64,000 bases of DNA from Planctomycetota bacterium (GTDB lineage Bacteria > Planctomycetota > Phycisphaerae > Phycisphaerales > UBA1924), in the NCBI GenBank assembly GCA_039819165.1, contig JBCBSM010000001.1, forward strand, positions 496,001 to 560,000, in the 5' to 3' direction. This document shows positions 49,552 through 61,642 of the stretch, in pieces. The position numbers and the translations under genes were made by a program. Positions within the stretch are counted from its first letter, which is position 1. Each line of letters opens with the position of its first letter. A model generated the notes under the pieces. That model was not told the DNA's origin. It saw only the letters and a list, made by a program, of their open reading frames with translations, and searched no databases.

Positions 49552-51870
49552 TCACGGGCAGGCGTCGGGGTCACCCAGCACCTCCAGCAGCCGAAGCACG
49601 TCGAGGGTGTCGACACGGCCGCTGCGGTCCAGGTCTGCCGCGGGCGCACCGCGGGCGACGAGGTCGGCCATCGCGAGCACGTCAAAGGCGTCGATGGCGC
49701 CGCTGCCGTCGACGTCGGCTCCCGATCGCACGCGACCGGCCAGTTCGATGTCGTCGAGGACCAGCCGGCCGGTCGCGCGGCCGTCGAAGACGATGGCGAG
49801 TCCCGCGAGTCTGGTAAGGTCCAGCTCGGGCTCGGCCGCGACGAATGCCGCCAGCGGGAAGCGGTACGTCTCGAACATCGTCTTCCACCCGATCCCCGGG
49901 GCGGGCCCGTCCGGGTAGGCCAGCGGGCCCTGCGGCGCATCGGACAGCCGCAGCCGCGCGACGCGGCCGGACTGGTCGTGCAGTTCGACGGACAGGTCGA
50001 TCTCGGCGCCAACGGGGTTGCGCGGATCGCCGTGCAGCTGCGCGAGCCGGAAACTCAGGTCCATCCAGCAGCGGGCGTCCAGGCCGCCGGAGTCCGAGAG
50101 CGTCTCGTAGAAGCCCAGCCCGGTCGTCGTCCACGCCACGTCCAGCCCGGACGTGGGCCAGTACAGCGTCTGGAAGTCGAGCATCCACCGCTCGTCGGCC
50201 ACGTCCAGCTCCGGGGCGTAGGCCACCGGCAGTCCGAGGCTGTTGGTGAACGGATCGCCCACGCCGCCGACGCGATCGAGGTCGTTGTTCGCGAACGACA
50301 CGCCCGCGCCCACCTCTTCCAGGCTCGCGGTCCAGATGCCCCAGCCGGGGTTGCGGAACAGGGCGACGTGGTCGTTGAACAGTCGCTCGACGGGAAACAT
50401 GCGGTCGTAGTTGGTCTGTCCGTCGTACGCCGCCCCGGCGCAGGCCAGCACGGCCGGCAGCGTCGGCGAGCCCACGCGGAAGTCCGAGATGATCGCGCGG
50501 CCGCCGCCGCAGACATACGCGGCGAGCGGCGCGTCGAACGGATGGCTGGCCGTCGAGCTGCCGTCCTGGTTCGCGCTGATGATCAGGTCCCAGCCGCCGG
50601 CCACGATGCGGGTCGCGAACTCGCGGCGATCCGACACCTGCACGATCTCGCCGACGCGACCGGTGGCGGCCTCGGCGTTGAGCGCCGGCCGGTAGAGATC
50701 GGTGCCGCGGATGTTGTCGAGGAAGAACAGCACGCGGGCGCCCTCGTCTTCGGCCAGAAGAGCGCGCAGCTCCTCGCGGAGCACGCGGATGCCCACCTCG
50801 CGGTCGACGAAGGTGTCGCTCAGGAAGCCGTTGACGAAGGTCTGCCCGGGGATGCCGACGATCGCGTCGGCGAACGACTCGGTCGAGTCATCCTCGAAAT
50901 TGTCGATCACCAGCCGCTCGGGCTCGTGGATCTGGTAGTGCACCGTTGCGCCGTCCTCGAGCAGATCGTGGCTGCGGCGGAGGGCGTCGAGCGCCGCCTC
51001 GTCGTCGAAGAAGTGGTGCACCACGAACGGCACGATGGCCGATGCGGCGGCGTCCTGGGCCTCGTGTCGCGGGATGACCGTGGCGCCCAGCGCGCCATGG
51101 TCGTCGAAGGCGTGGTGCCCCGATCCATCGACGTAGGCGTAGTGCCGCAGCCGGTCGCCGTATTCGTAGATCGCGATGGACTGCCCGTTGGCGACGCAGC
51201 CGTCCTCGTCCCGAGAGCCGTACACGACCTGCGTTGCGGGCATGCCGGGGTACCGCACGGCGTAGTCACCGATGGGCGTGCCATAGGGCAGCGGGCAGGG
51301 CGCCAGGAGCACCATGAACTCGGGATCGAGCGGAGGGCCGGGAGAAGAGCCCACGAGGTACAGCGCCGCGCCGGCCCCATGGGAGTGGCCCGCGAGCCCG
51401 TACCGCTCGTCGTCCACCTTGCCGAACAGGAAGTGCCCGGGCGACTGCGACCATTGCAGGACTCGGTTCGTCGTGGCCCGCAGGAGTTCGCGGTGCAGGT
51501 CGCTCACGTCTCCCGGGCCGGAGTGCCAGTCCCCGTTGTGCCGCACCGAGGCGATGATCACGCCGCGGCTCGCGAGCAGCGGGAAGAGGTAGTCGTACCA
51601 GTCGTAGTCCGAGCCGCCCGCGTGCGCGAACACGATGAAGGGCAGCGGGCCGGCGTTGGGCACGATCGGCGCATCCTCGCCCCGAGAGGTCGCCGGGTAG
51701 CTGATCTGCATCTCCCAGTCCCGCGCCCGGCCCTCGAGGGTGAGGGTCGACGCCCAGTAGCGGTAGCCCCACTGGTATCGCCCGGGTTCGAGCCACGGCT
51801 CGTCGGCCGTCGACGGCGCCGCAAGCAGCGCGAGCAATGCGCACACCGCGATCGCCGTCCCGCGCCTCAT
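49552..51870 (-). CDS. Secreted alpha/beta hydrolase with CP-terminal dockerin-like module
   Basis: A 772-residue exported protein. The signal peptide (residues 1-22, ending APSTADEP) is followed by a hydrolase domain with the nucleophile elbow GLAGHSHGAGAALYL near residue 145, and the histidine region SGHHAFDDHG near 250. Before it, FIVFAHAGGSDYDWYDY forms the oxyanion area typical of platelet-activating factor acetylhydrolase/dienelactone-type enzymes. A middle region (300-640) is of unknown type. The C-terminus is two dockerin-like repeats (DVDGSGAIDAFDVLAM, DLDRSGRVDTLDVLRL), ending Ala-Cys-Pro. Its ATG overlaps the stop of the HAF gene (ATGA), so they are co-translated. Substrate unknown. 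Confidence 0.75.
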   Translation of the reverse strand: MRRGTAIAVCALLALLAAPSTADEPWLEPGRYQWGYRYWASTLTLEGRARDWEMQISYPATSRGEDAPIVPNAGPLPFIVFAHAGGSDYDWYDYLFPLLASRGVIIASVRHNGDWHSGPGDVSDLHRELLRATTNRVLQWSQSPGHFLFGKVDDERYGLAGHSHGAGAALYLVGSSPGPPLDPEFMVLLAPCPLPYGTPIGDYAVRYPGMPATQVVYGSRDEDGCVANGQSIAIYEYGDRLRHYAYVDGSGHHAFDDHGALGATVIPRHEAQDAAASAIVPFVVHHFFDDEAALDALRRSHDLLEDGATVHYQIHEPERLVIDNFEDDSTESFADAIVGIPGQTFVNGFLSDTFVDREVGIRVLREELRALLAEDEGARVLFFLDNIRGTDLYRPALNAEAATGRVGEIVQVSDRREFATRIVAGGWDLIISANQDGSSTASHPFDAPLAAYVCGGGRAIISDFRVGSPTLPAVLACAGAAYDGQTNYDRMFPVERLFNDHVALFRNPGWGIWTASLEEVGAGVSFANNDLDRVGGVGDPFTNSLGLPVAYAPELDVADERWMLDFQTLYWPTSGLDVAWTTTGLGFYETLSDSGGLDARCWMDLSFRLAQLHGDPRNPVGAEIDLSVELHDQSGRVARLRLSDAPQGPLAYPDGPAPGIGWKTMFETYRFPLAAFVAAEPELDLTRLAGLAIVFDGRATGRLVLDDIELAGRVRSGADVDGSGAIDAFDVLAMADLVARGAPAADLDRSGRVDTLDVLRLLEVLGDPDACP

Positions 51871-53096
51871 GGGCAGCCCCCGTCGAAGGCGTTCTGGAAG
51901 GCCAGGAAGTCGAAGAGCGTGAGCACGCCGTCGCCGTCGATGTCTGCACGCGGCTCGCCCGCGTCGAAGGCATTCTGGAAGGCGAGGAAGTCGAAGAGCG
52001 TGAGCTCTCCGTCGCCGTCGAAGTCGGCCACGCAGCCCGCGAGGCGGACGATCCAGGACTGCGAATTCGCGATCGAGCCCTCGTACCCCCAGCCCGTCAT
52101 CCACTCACCGCTGGGCGAGATGGACGCAACGAACGAGAACACGAACCCCGGCGGGTACGCCACGCCGCTAGCGTCGAGGAAGTCCTCGACCGCCGTCGTT
52201 CCGACGCCCTCTTGCCACACGAAACCCCGGCCGAAGGTCGCCGGCCCGAGCGGCCAGGTGCCCCCCACGACGATCGAGCCGTCGGCCGTCGTCGACGTGG
52301 CCGCGGTGTTCCGCTGCGCCGCGGGCGGGCTCGGCAGCGGCTGGTACTCGTCGGTGTCGACGTTGTAGCGATACGCCACGCCCGGCGCCCCGATGCCGAA
52401 GCCCACGACGTACCGCCCGTCGTCCGAGACGCCGAAGGCCTCGAGCGCGGGCCGGCCGGCATCGGTGGAGATCAGCTCCTGCACGCCGTCGACCCACACG
52501 GCGCCCTGGCGGCCCGCGCCGTCCTGCCACCCCGCGACGACGTTGCCGTCGAGGTCGACCGCGCTGGCGCGCGCCGACGTGCCGATGGCCGCCGTGCCCA
52601 GGTCGATCACGCCGACGCCCTCGGTCCACTGCATCGCGTGCGCGTCGGCCGTGCCGAGCAGCGTCCAGCCCAGGCCGACGACCGATCGACCGTCGCCCGA
52701 GATGTTCCAGCCGCTGGAGATCTCGTCGTCCACCGGCTCGCCGAAACCCGGTATGAAGCCCAGCGGCGTCCATTCCCCGGTCGTGCGGTCGTAGCGGGCC
52801 ATCTCGTGCCAACCCGGCCCATCGTTGAAGATCGTGCCGCAGACGTACCGACCGTCGTTGGAGATCTTCGCCTGGCCGCCCACGCCCGAGCCCGCGGGCA
52901 CGCCGCCGATGAGTTCCACGCCGCCGTCCTCGGTCCAGAGGAAGTACTCGCCGGCGGGGTGGTTGAAGGAGCCCACGGCGACGCCGGCGTCGCTGATGCC
53001 CTCCATGAGCCCCTGGCCAACGGGCGTGGTCCAGAACTGGCCGAGGGCCGCCCCGCCGCAGCAGAGCACGATGACAGCGGTGAGGCGTGGCGCCAT
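51867..53096 (-). CDS. Secreted HAF-repeat protein with CP-terminal dockerin-like module
   Basis: A 409-residue protein with signal peptide (residues 1-19, ending GAALGQ) and about six HAF-type repeats with SDAGVAVG, SNDGRYVCG, SGDGRSVVG, SDDGRYVVG and ADGSIVVGG elements. It ends with two EF-hand-like repeats around DGDGELTLFDFLAFQ, finishing Gly-Cys-Pro. The start at 53096 follows GGAG and begins the signal peptide, in preference to the ATG at 53126. Its stop overlaps the start of the alpha/beta hydrolase gene. It is similar in plan to the protein at 38619-39926. Confidence 0.78.
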   Translation of the reverse strand: MAPRLTAVIVLCCGGAALGQFWTTPVGQGLMEGISDAGVAVGSFNHPAGEYFLWTEDGGVELIGGVPAGSGVGGQAKISNDGRYVCGTIFNDGPGWHEMARYDRTTGEWTPLGFIPGFGEPVDDEISSGWNISGDGRSVVGLGWTLLGTADAHAMQWTEGVGVIDLGTAAIGTSARASAVDLDGNVVAGWQDGAGRQGAVWVDGVQELISTDAGRPALEAFGVSDDGRYVVGFGIGAPGVAYRYNVDTDEYQPLPSPPAAQRNTAATSTTADGSIVVGGTWPLGPATFGRGFVWQEGVGTTAVEDFLDASGVAYPPGFVFSFVASISPSGEWMTGWGYEGSIANSQSWIVRLAGCVADFDGDGELTLFDFLAFQNAFDAGEPRADIDGDGVLTLFDFLAFQNAFDGGCP

Positions 53097-53153
53097 GTCG
53101 GGTCTCCGGGATTCGGTGGGTGGCATTGTGGCGCGAGTATACCGCGCGCGAAC

Positions 53154-54582: not shown

Positions 54583-55113
54583 ATGGACACCACCTCCGAA
54601 TTCCGCGAGCGAGCCAAGGACGTCCGCGTGCTGCTGTGCGACGTCGACGGCACCCTCACCGACGGGGCGCTCTACCTCGACGACGACAACGTCGAGACCC
54701 GCCGTTTCTGCGTCCGCGACGGCCAGGGCATCACGGCCTGGCGGCGGCTGGAGCGGCCCGTGGCGATCATCACCGCCCGCCCCGGCAAGGCCGTCCTTGA
54801 GCGGGCCCGCATGCTGGGCGTCGACGCGGTCCTCGAACGGGTCGAGGACAAGCACGCCGCCGTCCGGAGCGTGCTCGGTCGGCTGGGCTACGCGAGCGAG
54901 CAGGCGGCCTTCGTCGGCGACGATCTCGCGGACCTGCGGGCCTTCCGGGCCGTGGGCTGCCCGATTGCCGTCGCCGACGCCGACCCGCACGTCCGGGCCC
55001 GCGCGGCGCTGGTGACCGAGGCCCGCGGCGGCCACGGCGCGGTGCGGGAGGCGATCTGGAGGATCCTGGAGGTCCAGGGCCTGCTGGAGCACGTCATCGA
55101 GATGTACAGTTGA
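54583..55113 (+). CDS. kdsC: 3-deoxy-D-manno-octulosonate 8-phosphate phosphatase
   Basis: HAD-family phosphatase of 176 residues that removes phosphate from Kdo-8-P. Motif I DVDGTLTDGALYLDD is near residue 19, and FCVRDGQGITAWRRL near 45 is the KdsC-specific loop. AIITARPG forms motif II. The lysine motif is EDKHAA, and GDDLADLRAF forms motif IV. Length matches the family. It is followed directly by the LptC/LptA-like gene, the order seen in Gram-negative LPS clusters (kdsC-lptC). Divergent from the aminotransferase. Confidence 0.92.
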   Translation: MDTTSEFRERAKDVRVLLCDVDGTLTDGALYLDDDNVETRRFCVRDGQGITAWRRLERPVAIITARPGKAVLERARMLGVDAVLERVEDKHAAVRSVLGRLGYASEQAAFVGDDLADLRAFRAVGCPIAVADADPHVRARAALVTEARGGHGAVREAIWRILEVQGLLEHVIEMYS

Positions 55114-55115
55114 CG

Positions 55116-58100
55116 ATGCCGGCCCTCCGACGAGAACCAGCTCGATCACCAGCACGAGCAGCAGCGCGGTCACCGCAACGCCGAGGCGGCGCGGTGCAAC
55201 GGATCCTCGCCGCCCTCGCCGTGGCCGCCATCCTCGTGGCCGTGTTCGTGTACGTCTTCGCGGCCCCGAGCGGCCCGACGCCCGGGCGGCAGTCCGAGGC
55301 GCTCCCGCCGCCGGAGCTGCAGCCCGGCGCGCAGCTCGGCGCGGGCGGGCAGCTGGCCCAGCGAGTAGACGTCTACTTCCAGGACGGCAGCCAGCCGGGC
55401 CGGACGGCCGCCCGGATGATCGCCGACGAGATGGCGCCCGACGGCCCCCGCCGCTACCGCGCCGCGGCGCCCCGCGTGTGGCTGTACCAGTCCAGCGGAC
55501 GCACCATCCACGTGCAGTCGGAGACCGGCGACCTCGTCACGCCCTCCCGCGAGCAGCCGCCCGAGCGGGGCACGCTCCGCGGCGACGTGCTCGTCCGCCT
55601 GTTCGATGCCGGCGTGGCAACCGAGCCCGGGGACCTCGCGGCCGCGCCGGTGGCGGCCACCTTCCGCAGCGAGAGCCTCGACTTCAACGTCGAGCTCGGC
55701 ACGCTCTCCACCACCGACGTGGTCCGCGGTGGCACCGATGCGGTGACCTTCGAGGCCCGCGGCCTCGACGTGCGGGGCAACGAGGTTACACGCCAATTCG
55801 AGCGGCTGGAATCGCCGGGCGGCGGCACCGCGTCGTACACGCCCCGCGACGAGCCGATCGCAGCCGAGCCTGACGCAGGGCAAGAGCCGGCCGATGCCAC
55901 GGCTGGTGAACCCGGTGCAGCGGCGCCTCGGCATCCGCAGCGCGGTGCACCGGCGGACGATGCCGCGGCGCCCGATCCATCCGGTTCGTCCGAAACTGCC
56001 GGCGTCGTCGAGCGCTTCTACCACCTCCGCATCGCCGGCGGCGTCGTCGTCGAGCGGGGCGGGCTGGAGGTTGACGCCGACACCCTCGATGCGTGGATCC
56101 GCTTGGAGAACGATCGGCTGGCCGACGACGCGATCGCGCCGCTGGCCCGCCGCGGCGGCCTGCCGGTGGAGACCGGGGCCCGCCTGCTCGCCGCGGTGCT
56201 GGCCTCCTTGGGCGATCAAGCGACCAGCGATGATCGGTCGGCGGACGTGCCCGTCACGATGACCTGGAGCGGCCCGCTCGTGGCCCGCCCCATGCTCGAC
56301 GAGCCGCCCGAGCTGGCGTGGGACGACATCGCGCTGCGGTTCGGCGCGGCCGAGCGGGGCCTGGTCCGCCTCGCCGATGCCGAGACGTCGGCCGTCGGCC
56401 ACGCCGCGGCCATCGACTACTACCCCACGACGCAGCGGGCGGTGCTGGTGGGGCCGTCGTCCAACAGCGTGTACGTGAGCGCGCCGGGGGTGGGCGAGGC
56501 CCGCGGCATCCGCGTCGAGCTCGACCTGCTCGCCCGCGAGGCGCGGCTCATCGGGCCCGGGCAGCTCGCGGCGTTGGGTGGCGACGAGCAAGGCAGCATT
56601 GCGTGGGCCGAGCGCGCCGACCTGGACTTCGTTCGCCTACCCGGTGCCGGCGACGCCGGCGAGCCCCGCGTGTCGCTCTCGTCCGCCGACTTCCGTGGCA
56701 AGGTGGAGGCCATCGCGGGCGATGCGCGGCTCGCGGGCGATCGCGTCGCCGCCGAGTTCTTCGAGGTCGAGGCCGACCGCCCGCTGGTCCGCCGGCTCGT
56801 CATCGATCGCGAGGCCAACCAGCCCGCCAGCGCGGGCAGCGACCGCGCGGGCCGCCTCACCGGCGATCGCATCGAGGTCGAGTTCGCCCTCACCCAAGAG
56901 CGGGACCGCGCCGATCCGGTGCGGCTGCTCGCCAGGGGCTCGGTCACCGGGCGCGACGACCGGGCCACCTTCTCGTGCGGCACGCTCGACGCCGCCCTGC
57001 GGGCGACCAACGAGGGCCGCCGCATCGAGGTCGCCCGGGCCGAGCTCGACGGCGGCGTGGACCTGCGGGCCACGGATCGCGACGGAGTCCGCATCGAGGT
57101 GGTCGGCCGATCGCTCGTGGCCGAGCCCGAGCGGCAGTACATCGAGATCATCGCCGCCGAGGGCGAGACGGCCGAGGCGTCACGGGGCGTCAGCCGCATC
57201 CGCGGGCCGCAGATCACCCTCGACGGCGGCACGGGCATCGCGCAGGTGTTCGGGCCGGGCTCCTTCGCCCACGAGTTGCCCGGCGAACGGGGCGAGCGGC
57301 CGACCAAGCTCGACATCGCCTGGCGAAACTTCATGATCTTCGACGACGAACGGGGCCTGGCCGAGGCCGACGGCGCCGTCCAAGTCGTCGCCACCGACGA
57401 GCGGACCGAGGAGAACCGCGTCGCGGCCACCAACGTCCAGCTCGCCTTCGCACGTCCGGACGCGGACGCCGCCGAAGACGACCAGCCCAGCGCCTCCGAG
57501 AGCCTGCAGCGCGGCGAGCGCACGCTGCTGTGGGCCAAGGCCTTCGCCGAAGAGTCGCCCGGCGGCCGCGTCGTCGTCGAGATCAAGCGGTTCGCCCGTG
57601 GTGGCGGTCTGCGATCGGCCGTGGCGCTGCTCGTGCCCGAGCTCGATGTCGATGGTGCCACGGGCGACATGTCCGCCCCCGGCGCGGGCCGCGCCATCTT
57701 CTTCAGCACGCCGATGGACGACGCCGAACTTGCCGGGGACCTCGCCGACGAACCGGGCGGCCTCGATGCACTCGGCGGCGAGGGCGAGACCCTCGTCGAC
57801 TGGTCGGGCGGCCTGGAGCTTGCGCGCGAACGCTCCAGGCTGGTCGTGAATCGCGGCGTGAGGCTGAGCCACCGCAGCACGCCCGAGGCCGACCAGATCG
57901 ACATGGACTGCGAGACGCTCACTCTCGTGCTGGAGGAGGGCGGCGGCCGCGGCCGCAGCGGCGGCACGGCGCTCCGAGAGGCCCGGGCCGAGGGCGCCGT
58001 CTACGCCGCCACGCCCGCCCGGGAGATCGTCGCACGCTCGCTCCGCTTCGACGCTCGCACCGGCGAGGTCGTCGCGTCGGGCGACCCGGTCGCCCCCGTC

Positions 58101-58241
58101 GTGGTCTTCGATCGCGAGAGCGCCCAGCCCGCGTCGGCCGCCATGATCCGCTGGAACACCGAGACCGGCGAGTTCGTGATCGAGCGGCCGCTGCCCACCA
58201 GCGGCGCGGTCAGCGATCTCGTGCTCGAGGGTGGCGGCTGA
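55116..58241 (+). CDS. Giant LptC/LptA-like periplasmic protein
   Basis: A 1041-residue protein with one N-terminal membrane helix (about residues 28-48, LAALAVAAILVAVFVYVF) and a long periplasmic, beta-rich, Asp/Glu/Arg-rich body. The first section (residues 75-170) resembles LptC. Later sections contain repeated short strands of the type gsVtG, ArAELDGGVDLRA, AVQVVATDE, and AEGAVYAATPAREIVARSLRFDARTGEVVASG near the end, which look like LptA/OstA-type beta-taco repeats. It would bridge inner and outer membrane for LPS export. Ordinary LptC is about 190 residues and LptA about 185. It starts two bases after kdsC; a TTG at 55110 is an alternative. Family assignment rests on pattern and context. 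Confidence 0.6.
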   Translation: MPALRREPARSPARAAARSPQRRGGAVQRILAALAVAAILVAVFVYVFAAPSGPTPGRQSEALPPPELQPGAQLGAGGQLAQRVDVYFQDGSQPGRTAARMIADEMAPDGPRRYRAAAPRVWLYQSSGRTIHVQSETGDLVTPSREQPPERGTLRGDVLVRLFDAGVATEPGDLAAAPVAATFRSESLDFNVELGTLSTTDVVRGGTDAVTFEARGLDVRGNEVTRQFERLESPGGGTASYTPRDEPIAAEPDAGQEPADATAGEPGAAAPRHPQRGAPADDAAAPDPSGSSETAGVVERFYHLRIAGGVVVERGGLEVDADTLDAWIRLENDRLADDAIAPLARRGGLPVETGARLLAAVLASLGDQATSDDRSADVPVTMTWSGPLVARPMLDEPPELAWDDIALRFGAAERGLVRLADAETSAVGHAAAIDYYPTTQRAVLVGPSSNSVYVSAPGVGEARGIRVELDLLAREARLIGPGQLAALGGDEQGSIAWAERADLDFVRLPGAGDAGEPRVSLSSADFRGKVEAIAGDARLAGDRVAAEFFEVEADRPLVRRLVIDREANQPASAGSDRAGRLTGDRIEVEFALTQERDRADPVRLLARGSVTGRDDRATFSCGTLDAALRATNEGRRIEVARAELDGGVDLRATDRDGVRIEVVGRSLVAEPERQYIEIIAAEGETAEASRGVSRIRGPQITLDGGTGIAQVFGPGSFAHELPGERGERPTKLDIAWRNFMIFDDERGLAEADGAVQVVATDERTEENRVAATNVQLAFARPDADAAEDDQPSASESLQRGERTLLWAKAFAEESPGGRVVVEIKRFARGGGLRSAVALLVPELDVDGATGDMSAPGAGRAIFFSTPMDDAELAGDLADEPGGLDALGGEGETLVDWSGGLELARERSRLVVNRGVRLSHRSTPEADQIDMDCETLTLVLEEGGGRGRSGGTALREARAEGAVYAATPAREIVARSLRFDARTGEVVASGDPVAPVVVFDRESAQPASAAMIRWNTETGEFVIERPLPTSGAVSDLVLEGGG

Positions 58242-59895: not shown

Positions 59896-60214
59896 CCCGA
59901 ACCAGCCGCGCGAATCCGTGCGACCCACCCGAACGGACTGATGCCCCCAACCCCGTTGTCCGATCTCTGCCATCAGGAAGGATGGCGGCGGTCGAGCGAC
60001 GGGTGCCGCACGTCCGATACAGATCACGAAGGCCGCGGACGGAGCCCCGCGGCGGCCTCGGCCCGGGCGGATGCCCGCGGCGGCCGGGACCGGGATGCTC
60101 GAGTTGTCCCGTCGCACAGGCGCCGGCGTGAGCCGGGGAGCAGGTAGCAGGGCAGCAGCCGCGGTGCACGAAGAGGACGCCCGCCACAGCCCGCCAAGGA
60201 TGGAGGCTTCGCCG
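59896..60214. other. Intergenic region upstream of the TolB-like lipoprotein gene
   Basis: About 320 bases in which no gene is supported. It should contain the promoter of the lipoprotein gene. No clear promoter, hairpin or repeat is recognised. Confidence 0.5.
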
Positions 60215-61642
60215 ATGAGCTCGAACACGACGTACCACGCCGCACGCATCACCGCCGCCTCGGTCGCCATGCTGGTCGGCCTCGCGGCCGGCTGCACCAC
60301 CGACGACGCCTCGGGCGACTCGATCCTGACCCAGCGGAGCAACGGCAACAGCCGCATCGCGCCGCTGCAGACCAGCCGCAGCGGCCAGTTCCGCGGCGAC
60401 CAGTTCCGCGGCGGCGAGAGCGGCTTCTCGGGCTCCTCGCGGGGCGGCTCGGTCGCCCAGGGCACCAGCCCGCAGGGCAGGATCCAGCCGAGCGATCCCT
60501 ACGCCGTCGCGCTGACCGCCGACGATCCGACGGGCTTCCAGCGGACCGGCGCCGCGCCGCGGACCGGCGAGCGGATCAGCCTGTCGCCCAAGACGCCCCC
60601 GCAGTTCCAGCCGACCGACGCGGTGCACGACTTCTACGGTGAGGTCTTCACCGACGCCGCCGGGCTTGTTCCGCTGGATCCCGATCGCGCGGGTGGCAAC
60701 AACCTGGCGCAGGTCAGCTTCAGCGTCGAGGGTGCGGACTTCGACCCCGATGTCGCCCCCGACGGCCGCAGCGTGGTGTTCGCCAGCACGCAGCACAGCC
60801 TGACCAGCGACATCTTCGTCAAGCCGGTGGATAGCCGCGTGGTGACCCGCCTGACCAAGGACGAGGCCAACGACGTGATGCCCAAGTTCAGCCCCGACGG
60901 CGACCGCGTCGCCTTCGCGAGCAACCGCTCGGGCAACTGGGACATCTTCGTGACCCCCTCCACCGGTGGCGCCGCCGTCCAGGTGACCACCGAGAGCAGC
61001 CACGAGCTGCACCCCAGCTGGTCGCCCGACGGCCGGTACCTGGCCTTCAGCCGCCTCGGCGAGGTCAGCGGCAAGTGGGAGATCTGGGTCACCGACGTGA
61101 GTAACCCGGGCGTGACCAAGTTCCTGTCCTACGGCCTGTTCCCGGAGTGGTCGCCGGTCGCCGGCAACACCGCCAACGGCCAGGGCGAGCGGATCCTGTT
61201 CCAGCAGAGCAAGGAGCGGGGCGACCGCGCGTTCACGGTCTGGACGCTGGACTTCACCGACTTCAACGCCGGCAACCTGACCCAGGTCGCCTCGAGCCCA
61301 TACGCCGCGTGCATCAACCCCTCGTGGAGCCGCGACGGCCAGTGGATCTCCTTCGCCACCGTGCCCAACCCGGCGCAGTGGGCCGAGATGAACGAGACCC
61401 GCCCCGCCATGGCCCAGCTGTGGATGGTCGCCAGCGACGGCACCTCGCTGGTCGAGCTGACCGACGACAACGCCGTCAACCTGATGCCCACCTGGGCCCC
61501 GGACAACCACATCTACTACATCTCCGATCGCGGCGGCGTAGACAACATCTGGTCGCTGAGCGCCCGCACCGCCATCATCGCCGCCACGGGCGAGGACCCG
61601 GGCGTCGGCCCGCGGTTCACCACGGTGCCGAACAACCCTTGA
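60215..61642 (+). CDS. TolB-like beta-propeller lipoprotein
   Basis: A 475-residue lipoprotein. The N-terminus has a signal peptide with a good lipobox, LAAGC, near residue 26. A Gly/Ser/Gln-rich linker follows, with two QFRG repeats. The rest (about residues 160-470) is built of WD40-like/PD40 beta-propeller repeats with DPDVAPDGRSVVFAST, KFSPDGDRVAFASNRSGNWD, SWSPDGRYLAFSRLG and SWSRDGQWISFAT. This is the TolB C-terminal type of propeller, but the TolB N-terminal domain is not recognised. It probably sits at the outer membrane. GGAGG lies eight bases before the ATG. A terminator follows. Confidence 0.82.
   Translation: MSSNTTYHAARITAASVAMLVGLAAGCTTDDASGDSILTQRSNGNSRIAPLQTSRSGQFRGDQFRGGESGFSGSSRGGSVAQGTSPQGRIQPSDPYAVALTADDPTGFQRTGAAPRTGERISLSPKTPPQFQPTDAVHDFYGEVFTDAAGLVPLDPDRAGGNNLAQVSFSVEGADFDPDVAPDGRSVVFASTQHSLTSDIFVKPVDSRVVTRLTKDEANDVMPKFSPDGDRVAFASNRSGNWDIFVTPSTGGAAVQVTTESSHELHPSWSPDGRYLAFSRLGEVSGKWEIWVTDVSNPGVTKFLSYGLFPEWSPVAGNTANGQGERILFQQSKERGDRAFTVWTLDFTDFNAGNLTQVASSPYAACINPSWSRDGQWISFATVPNPAQWAEMNETRPAMAQLWMVASDGTSLVELTDDNAVNLMPTWAPDNHIYYISDRGGVDNIWSLSARTAIIAATGEDPGVGPRFTTVPNNP

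Follow-up and report, generated by a model that had tools for sequence, protein, structure and literature searches.

A 1041-residue planctomycetal protein encoded behind kdsC joins LptC to about five LptA-like modules and probably forms a one-piece lipopolysaccharide bridge

What does a bacterium encode in the place usually held by lptC, directly behind kdsC, when the gene found there specifies 1041 residues and a body made largely of beta strands? The question is raised by a 64,000-nucleotide stretch of a contig from a Planctomycetota bacterium of the order Phycisphaerales (the window), in which an open reading frame (ORF) at 55116..58241 (+) had been proposed, in a first-pass annotation made from the sequence alone, to encode an LptC-LptA fusion. 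Here we describe the relation of this protein to LptC and LptA, its predicted fold, its partners in the same genome, its gene neighbourhood and the spread of similar proteins across the phylum. The gene very probably encodes a one-piece lipopolysaccharide (LPS) bridge, a single chain replacing both LptC and the LptA oligomer. This reading draws on the computed homology and fold of the modules (weak in module 4), their order, the neighbourhood of kdsC and kdsD, and the presence of LptB, of LptF/LptG and of an LptD-like protein.

The ORF is conserved among relatives. A search with the single protein sequence gave matches in 44 of 61 genomes, its own included, with 52-55% identity in the six further members of its genus; none of the listed matches contains an internal stop. 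Loci were supplied by 30 of the 44 matching genomes, and a family alignment of 28 members was made after two contig-edge pieces (L007 and L023) were left out. The profile of this family has matches in 59 of the 61 genomes, again including the window's own, where it matches once, and in all 55 of those of high quality (completeness of 90% or more, contamination of 5% or less); one match (in genome G056) contains one in-frame TGA. Because matches free of internal stops are so widespread, the ORF cannot be ascribed to chance. A single N-terminal transmembrane helix is predicted at residues 30-46 (55203..55253, +), from a helix in the AlphaFold model with a predicted local distance difference test score (pLDDT) of only about 30 and from a hydrophobic stretch seen by eye in the family alignment, and an arginine-rich stretch precedes it, which by the positive-inside rule would place the N-terminus in the cytoplasm. 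The protein has in this respect the single N-terminal anchor typical of LptC, and the first-pass description of a 1041-residue ORF with one N-terminal helix holds.

Scanned against curated libraries at E-values up to 1, members of the family match models of both LptC and LptA. The NCBIfam model LptC_YrbK (TIGR04409) is found in 22 of the 28 (best E-value 2e-9) and the NCBIfam LptA model (TIGR03002) in 14 (best 1.1e-8), while the Pfam LptA/OstA model, LptD_N (PF03968), matches 20 members (best 1e-9) and Pfam LptC (PF06835) matches 11 (best 1.5e-4). Match positions were viewed in nine members, seven of which match one or both of the LptC and LptD_N models; the LptC matches fall at 86-229, those of LptD_N from 293 onwards. 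When the family profile was compared with the 177,635 sequences of the PDB, the first four ranks were all LptA (2.7e-4, 0.0012, 0.047 and 0.074), followed by the LptD N-terminus. For alignment with hhalign, an LptC profile was assembled from the Escherichia coli protein and the 18 of 30 LptC domains from the phylum that are at least 130 residues long, and an LptA profile from all 30 phylum domains and the E. coli protein; the LptA profile was the sole basis for assessing internal repeats, and hhalign E-values refer to one template each, not to a database. Five column shuffles of the whole family and its reversed alignment all gave probabilities of at most 0.3%, controls that apply to the hhalign values obtained in context, the scores of cut-out segments standing without controls.

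We read the chain, on the strength of these alignments, as one LptC module followed by about five LptA-like modules, whose boundaries within the continuous stack are arbitrary. The LptC module covers residues 80-223 (55353..55784, +); its hhalign probability against LptC is 96.5 in context and 97.2 when cut out, and in the model residues 81-221 align with chain 9dor_C (Z 10.3, 123 residues, 3.5 A). A low-complexity linker rich in Pro and Ala, of differing length among homologues in the family alignment, lies at residues 245-296 (55848..56003, +; pLDDT <50). LptA-like module 1, at residues 297-475 (56004..56540, +), carries an insert at about 340-378, and its probabilities against LptA are 27 (304-331) and 25 (395-475) in context, the cut-out segments scoring 90.4 (297-341, over 27 columns) and 57.8 (376-470); strands are modelled in this region, with which the LptD N-terminus aligns (9kn3_A, Z 10.8 over 314-600; 5iv9_A, Z 10.7 over 314-604). 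Module 2 (residues 519-628; 56670..56999, +) has its tail in common with module 3 and reaches 80 in context and, cut out, 90.5 (500-605) and 48 (440-560). The strongest LptA match is that of module 3 (residues 601-712; 56916..57251, +), at 96.4 in context and 97.8 cut out (580-725), and the LptA matches from the PDB profile search fall about here. Module 4, the weakest (residues 737-852; 57324..57671, +), is at 36 in context and 80 cut out (690-860), and the model is poor across much of 762-834, where pLDDT is <50. The C-terminal module 5 (residues 895-1020; 57798..58175, +) returns to 96.2 in context and 97.4 cut out (850-1035).

Membership in LptC is indicated in this way through the family and through hhalign. 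Ordinary LptC has about 190 residues and one jelly-roll, and because this chain has 1041 residues and several modules we class it as a fusion containing LptC and not as an ordinary LptC. The repeated modules match LptA/OstA in sequence, in both libraries and in the PDB; they are joined in frame to the LptC anchor and do not form a separate soluble secreted protein. The fusion first proposed is accordingly supported, with the refinement that it holds not one LptA but about five LptA-like modules.

The predicted structure is consistent with this assignment. AlphaFold, given four sequences and no templates, placed the helix at 30-46 ahead of 64 strands of at least three residues and five short helices (counted by hand), so that the whole chain is mostly beta; mean pLDDT is 61.6, with low values at the N-terminus, in the linkers and within module 4. 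Folded alone, the middle of the chain (residues 297-765, 469 residues) gave a pLDDT of 83.9 and a predicted template modelling (TM) score of 0.78, and a Foldseek search with this segment placed LptA on top (9.3e-5, probability 1.00). With the whole chain, LptA appears from rank 11 (1.3e-4, probability 1.00); TM-scores by target of the LptA matches are 0.48-0.65, at root-mean-square deviations (rmsd) of 5-10 A. Alignment with VIA reached Z 14.3 over residues 833-1023, which include module 5, with chains of LptC and LptA, and 12.6-14.2 in that region with those of LptD; over residues 576-721, the region of module 3, the LptA chain 2r1a_B aligned at Z 10.7; LptD, LptA and LptC stand in the leading ranks for the middle segment, at Z 10-11.7. 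With the reservation of module 4, the LptA/OstA jelly-roll is recognised in the model by both programs, and the modelled fold resembles that of Lpt proteins at the two ends as well as in the middle. Profile and fold thus both confirm the many LptA/OstA-like strands noted at first, and the structural check suggested for them returned a helix followed by beta modules that match LptA, LptC and the LptD N-terminus.

An Lpt exporter and an outer-membrane partner occur in the same genome. LptB was identified at 325 bits, no other among the 30 ATP-binding cassette (ABC) matches exceeding the cut-off of 240, and there are two LptF/LptG proteins, of 592 and 366 residues. The larger of these (L147:691-2466; on contig G000:C1 at about 1796190-1797965) contains a periplasmic segment of 361 residues; the corresponding segment measures 345-392 residues in all 17 genomes sampled, this one included, and, as judged from hydrophobic segments, about 158 in the 366-residue partner. 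The possibility that the enlarged segment represents extra LptA modules was rejected, as it has no similarity to the LptA or LptC profiles. An LptD-like protein of 1012 residues (L148:1384-4419 on G000:C1, -) is homologous, at 2e-117, to a relative's protein that matches the LptD model PF04453, so that an LptB2FG exporter and LptD, the latter by homology to the relative's LptD, are found together in this genome.

The gene neighbourhood is in keeping with an LPS bridge. Directly upstream lies kdsC (54583..55113, +), encoding 3-deoxy-D-manno-oct-2-ulosonic acid (KDO) 8-phosphate phosphatase and scoring 124 bits against TIGR01670 (cut-off 106.95) with a query that lacked the first residue (start at 54586). 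The fusion gene has an ATG start; an optional TTG at 55110, six bases upstream, would give 1043 residues and a 4-base overlap with the kdsC stop, and in E. coli K-12 kdsC and lptC likewise overlap by 4 bases (3342836-3342839). A scan of up to 1.5 kb upstream of 30 fusion loci, three of them without usable upstream sequence, found a KdsC homologue (14 loci) and/or a KdsD homologue (20 loci) at all 27 testable loci, this one included, with gaps of up to 0.8 kb, so that the homologue is not always the adjacent gene. KdsC or KdsD is also near 25 of the 30 phylum loci that have an LptC match. The order here resembles kdsD-kdsC-lptC of E. coli, and the initial suggestion that the protein occupies the usual position of lptC proved sound. 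Downstream sits a convergent gene for the 30 kDa subunit of NADH dehydrogenase; hence no lptB directly follows the fusion gene, and lptB lies elsewhere in the genome.

Other genes of the window were noted in passing. A neighbour of 419 residues (51867-53126, -) has a C-terminal GC-type dockerin domain (NF041540, 46.5 bits, cut-off 29), and the tail of the next gene (49552-52104, -) looks similar by eye to this dockerin end, without a match to NF041540. At 60071-61642 (+) is encoded a TolB-like beta-propeller with PD40 repeats, scoring 127.9 bits against the TolB model, far under its cut-off of 343; it is possibly a divergent part of a Tol-Pal system near the lpt gene.

Combinations of LptC with LptA-like modules extend beyond these relatives. 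Among 199 sampled genomes of the phylum, an LptC match at E-values up to 0.01 is present in 52, and the frame (stop to stop) that holds the best match is longer than 850 residues in 24 of these, 500-850 in 20, 351-499 in two and at most 350 in six. An LptD_N match shares the open frame with LptC in 23 of the 52, on distinct stretches in 22; in the remaining genome (G119) both models match one and the same stretch. Each of these related models, for LptC and for LptA, can match domains of the other, so that some of the LptC matches in long frames may be LptA-like modules or LptD; the figures are also lower bounds, since the models miss the window's own genome and others of its genus (G004 and G006). 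By these sequence matches, frames that combine LptC with LptA modules are a recurrent feature of the phylum. One such family (f50, for example in G177 and G208) combines, in a frame of about 665 residues, LptC with as many as three LptD_N matches. In some other Planctomycetota, LptA-type matches lie in small frames of 169-232 residues, so that stand-alone LptA genes of ordinary length can be found among members of the phylum. In genome G077 (L047 and L081), LptC and LptA-type matches occur in two neighbouring frames with LptB just downstream, a layout nearer to that of E. coli and possibly representing the unfused state.

Set beside known systems, the protein combines familiar parts in an unfamiliar way. 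Like LptC (E. coli YrbK; PF06835, TIGR04409), it begins with a single N-terminal helix followed by a jelly-roll, and its gene stands directly behind kdsC; unlike E. coli LptC, of 191 residues, it confines the LptC module to the first quarter of its chain. With LptA (E. coli YhbN, Pseudomonas LptH; PF03968, TIGR03002) its further modules share fold, sequence pattern and arrangement in a row, and LptA oligomers also stand in a row, according to passages of one account (PMC5575297). E. coli LptA, however, is a separate, self-assembling periplasmic protein of 185 residues, whereas the present chain carries about five modules in covalent linkage to LptC; the first-pass remark that the chain is several times the size of LptC plus LptA agrees with these lengths. 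The jelly-roll of the LptD N-terminal domain aligns at Z 9-14 with several stretches, but no outer-membrane barrel model matched the fusion protein, and a separate LptD-like gene exists. The f50 frame is the closest in build, having LptC and then OstA/LptA modules in one frame with kdsC upstream; it differs in having about three LptA-like modules as against about five here, and in that Pfam recognises its modules directly. Among the matches listed in the open-access literature, preprints excluded, there was no report of a one-piece, multi-module LptC-LptA build. A paper on the planctomycete outer membrane states that LptD and BamA are present in all planctomycete genomes then published, and the words LptA and LptC do not occur in its main text (PMC3422733). 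LptC and LptA as single parts are known.

Several results weigh against reading the chain as an Lpt bridge. The window protein taken alone has no match in Pfam, NCBIfam or the PDB, so that the search with PF06835 and PF03968 envisaged by the first-pass annotation was silent on the protein itself and positive only through its family; two of the nine members with viewed positions match neither the LptC nor the LptD_N model; single sequences of E. coli LptA and LptC align weakly with the family profile (probabilities of 15 and 2); and the in-context probabilities of modules 1, 2 and 4 are lower, at 25-80%. The whole-chain Foldseek search places LptC (3my2) only at rank 39 (E-value 0.014, probability 1.00) and opens with megalin (4.4e-8, TM-score 0.08); LptD and long beta proteins of eukaryotes, megalin among them, fill the ranks above LptA with TM-scores that all stay below 0.2, and the LptD ranks (TM-scores 0.08-0.17, rmsd 33-46 A) are by themselves no evidence. 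We rejected megalin and teneurin as fold relatives, at TM-scores below 0.1 over the whole chain. Sheets of the OspA type also align with the middle, at Z 7.6-10.8 overall and 8.4-10.8 in the segment folded alone, so that a closed groove there is no more than possible; OspA itself was rejected as a relative, its likeness being one of sheets without sequence support.

Two further points of this kind come from the genome. The LptD-like protein falls just under the Pfam cut-off (19.8 versus 22.4 bits); no more than 38 of the 61 genomes have an LptD that PF04453 detects, and a divergent LptD is thus easily missed in this order. The models PF06835 and PF03968, run over the window's own genome, gave no matches at E-values up to 10, negatives that say little about lptA because both also miss the fusion protein and the genome's LptD. 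A profile of LptA modules was therefore of more interest for the separate lptA whose absence the first-pass annotation had proposed to check. It comprises 26 rows, including two stretches of the window protein and E. coli LptA, and favours the fusion over other LptA genes; seven of the 30 domains were left out (L065, L068, L069, L071 and L076, near-duplicates of f50 rows, and L086 and L091). Its two matches in the genome are both inside the fusion, and no separate LptA gene was detected, but the same profile, which recognises the fusion only, is blind to the genome's LptD, so that a very divergent separate LptA could escape it. Across 37 genomes at E-values up to 0.05 it gave 103 matches, 102 of them in frames of at least 842 residues, many coinciding with the places of PF04453 LptD and of the family profile; the sole match in a short frame is a 123-residue piece (in G011) that the family profile recognises as the end of a fusion.

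Could another kind of protein account for the same features? AsmA-like proteins consist of a single N-terminal helix followed by an extended beta groove, and a bridge resembling AsmA, TamB or YhdP, moving phospholipids, would show the same gross anatomy of a helix and then a long beta body. No AsmA, DUF3971 or TamB is among the Pfam and NCBIfam families listed for the 28 members at E-values up to 1, a result compatible with a distant relation; the leading sequence matches and the module-sized fold matches are instead LptA, LptC and LptD, and the gene lies in a kdsC/kdsD neighbourhood, all of which makes this identity very improbable. That same neighbourhood, together with the matches of many members, in two curated libraries, to models of LptC and of LptA, the succession of LptC and LptD_N along the chain where positions were viewed, and the flat response of the shuffled and reversed alignments, speaks against a large periplasmic beta protein, such as an adhesin or envelope scaffold, that would share with Lpt only a common beta architecture; the OspA-type alignments of the middle are in its favour, and we give it hardly any credence.

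A closer variant is an Lpt-type bridge that carries a lipid other than LPS. The Lpt fold leaves the cargo unfixed, and a non-LPS cargo is proposed in one study for the Lpt system of Treponema pallidum (PMC8407342). Against it, the gene of a KDO enzyme, kdsC, abuts the fusion gene and kdsD is near it in relatives, which points to a KDO-bearing glycolipid, and the reported presence of LptD and BamA throughout the planctomycete genomes then published also disfavours it; we hold this variant to be unlikely.

In a one-piece LPS bridge, the LptC module would dock on LptF/LptG, as the Lpt literature leads one to expect; LptB2FG would push LPS out, and LPS would run along the row of jelly-rolls of a single chain until the C-terminal module meets LptD. 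This course presumes that the chain binds LptB2FG and LptD, that its groove is continuous and open, that LPS is the cargo and that one molecule may span the whole periplasm. The length of such a bridge would be set by the gene and not by the count of assembled LptA copies. For E. coli, passages in one account (PMC5575297) put the assembly of LptF/G, LptC, one LptA and LptD/E at an estimated 16 nm or so and the periplasm at about 21 nm, and describe the number of LptA copies in the bridge, and the need for a stable oligomer, as unsettled. By analogy with that estimate, about four further modules would let the planctomycete chain reach well beyond 16 nm, fitting a wide periplasm.

The fusion explains the apparent absence of lptC and lptA when Pfam models are run on this genome. 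As the same build recurs in relatives, the length of the bridge might be readable from the gene. In a natural single-chain bridge the number of modules is fixed, apparently at some three in one lineage and some five in this one, and the question of LptA copy number thereby becomes open to test. More tentatively, at somewhat less than even chances, the bridge of Planctomycetota may in general be a single covalent chain reaching from the inner membrane as far as LptD, in which the number of modules acts as a molecular ruler for the width of the periplasm and the enlarged LptF/G segment is part of the same lengthening.

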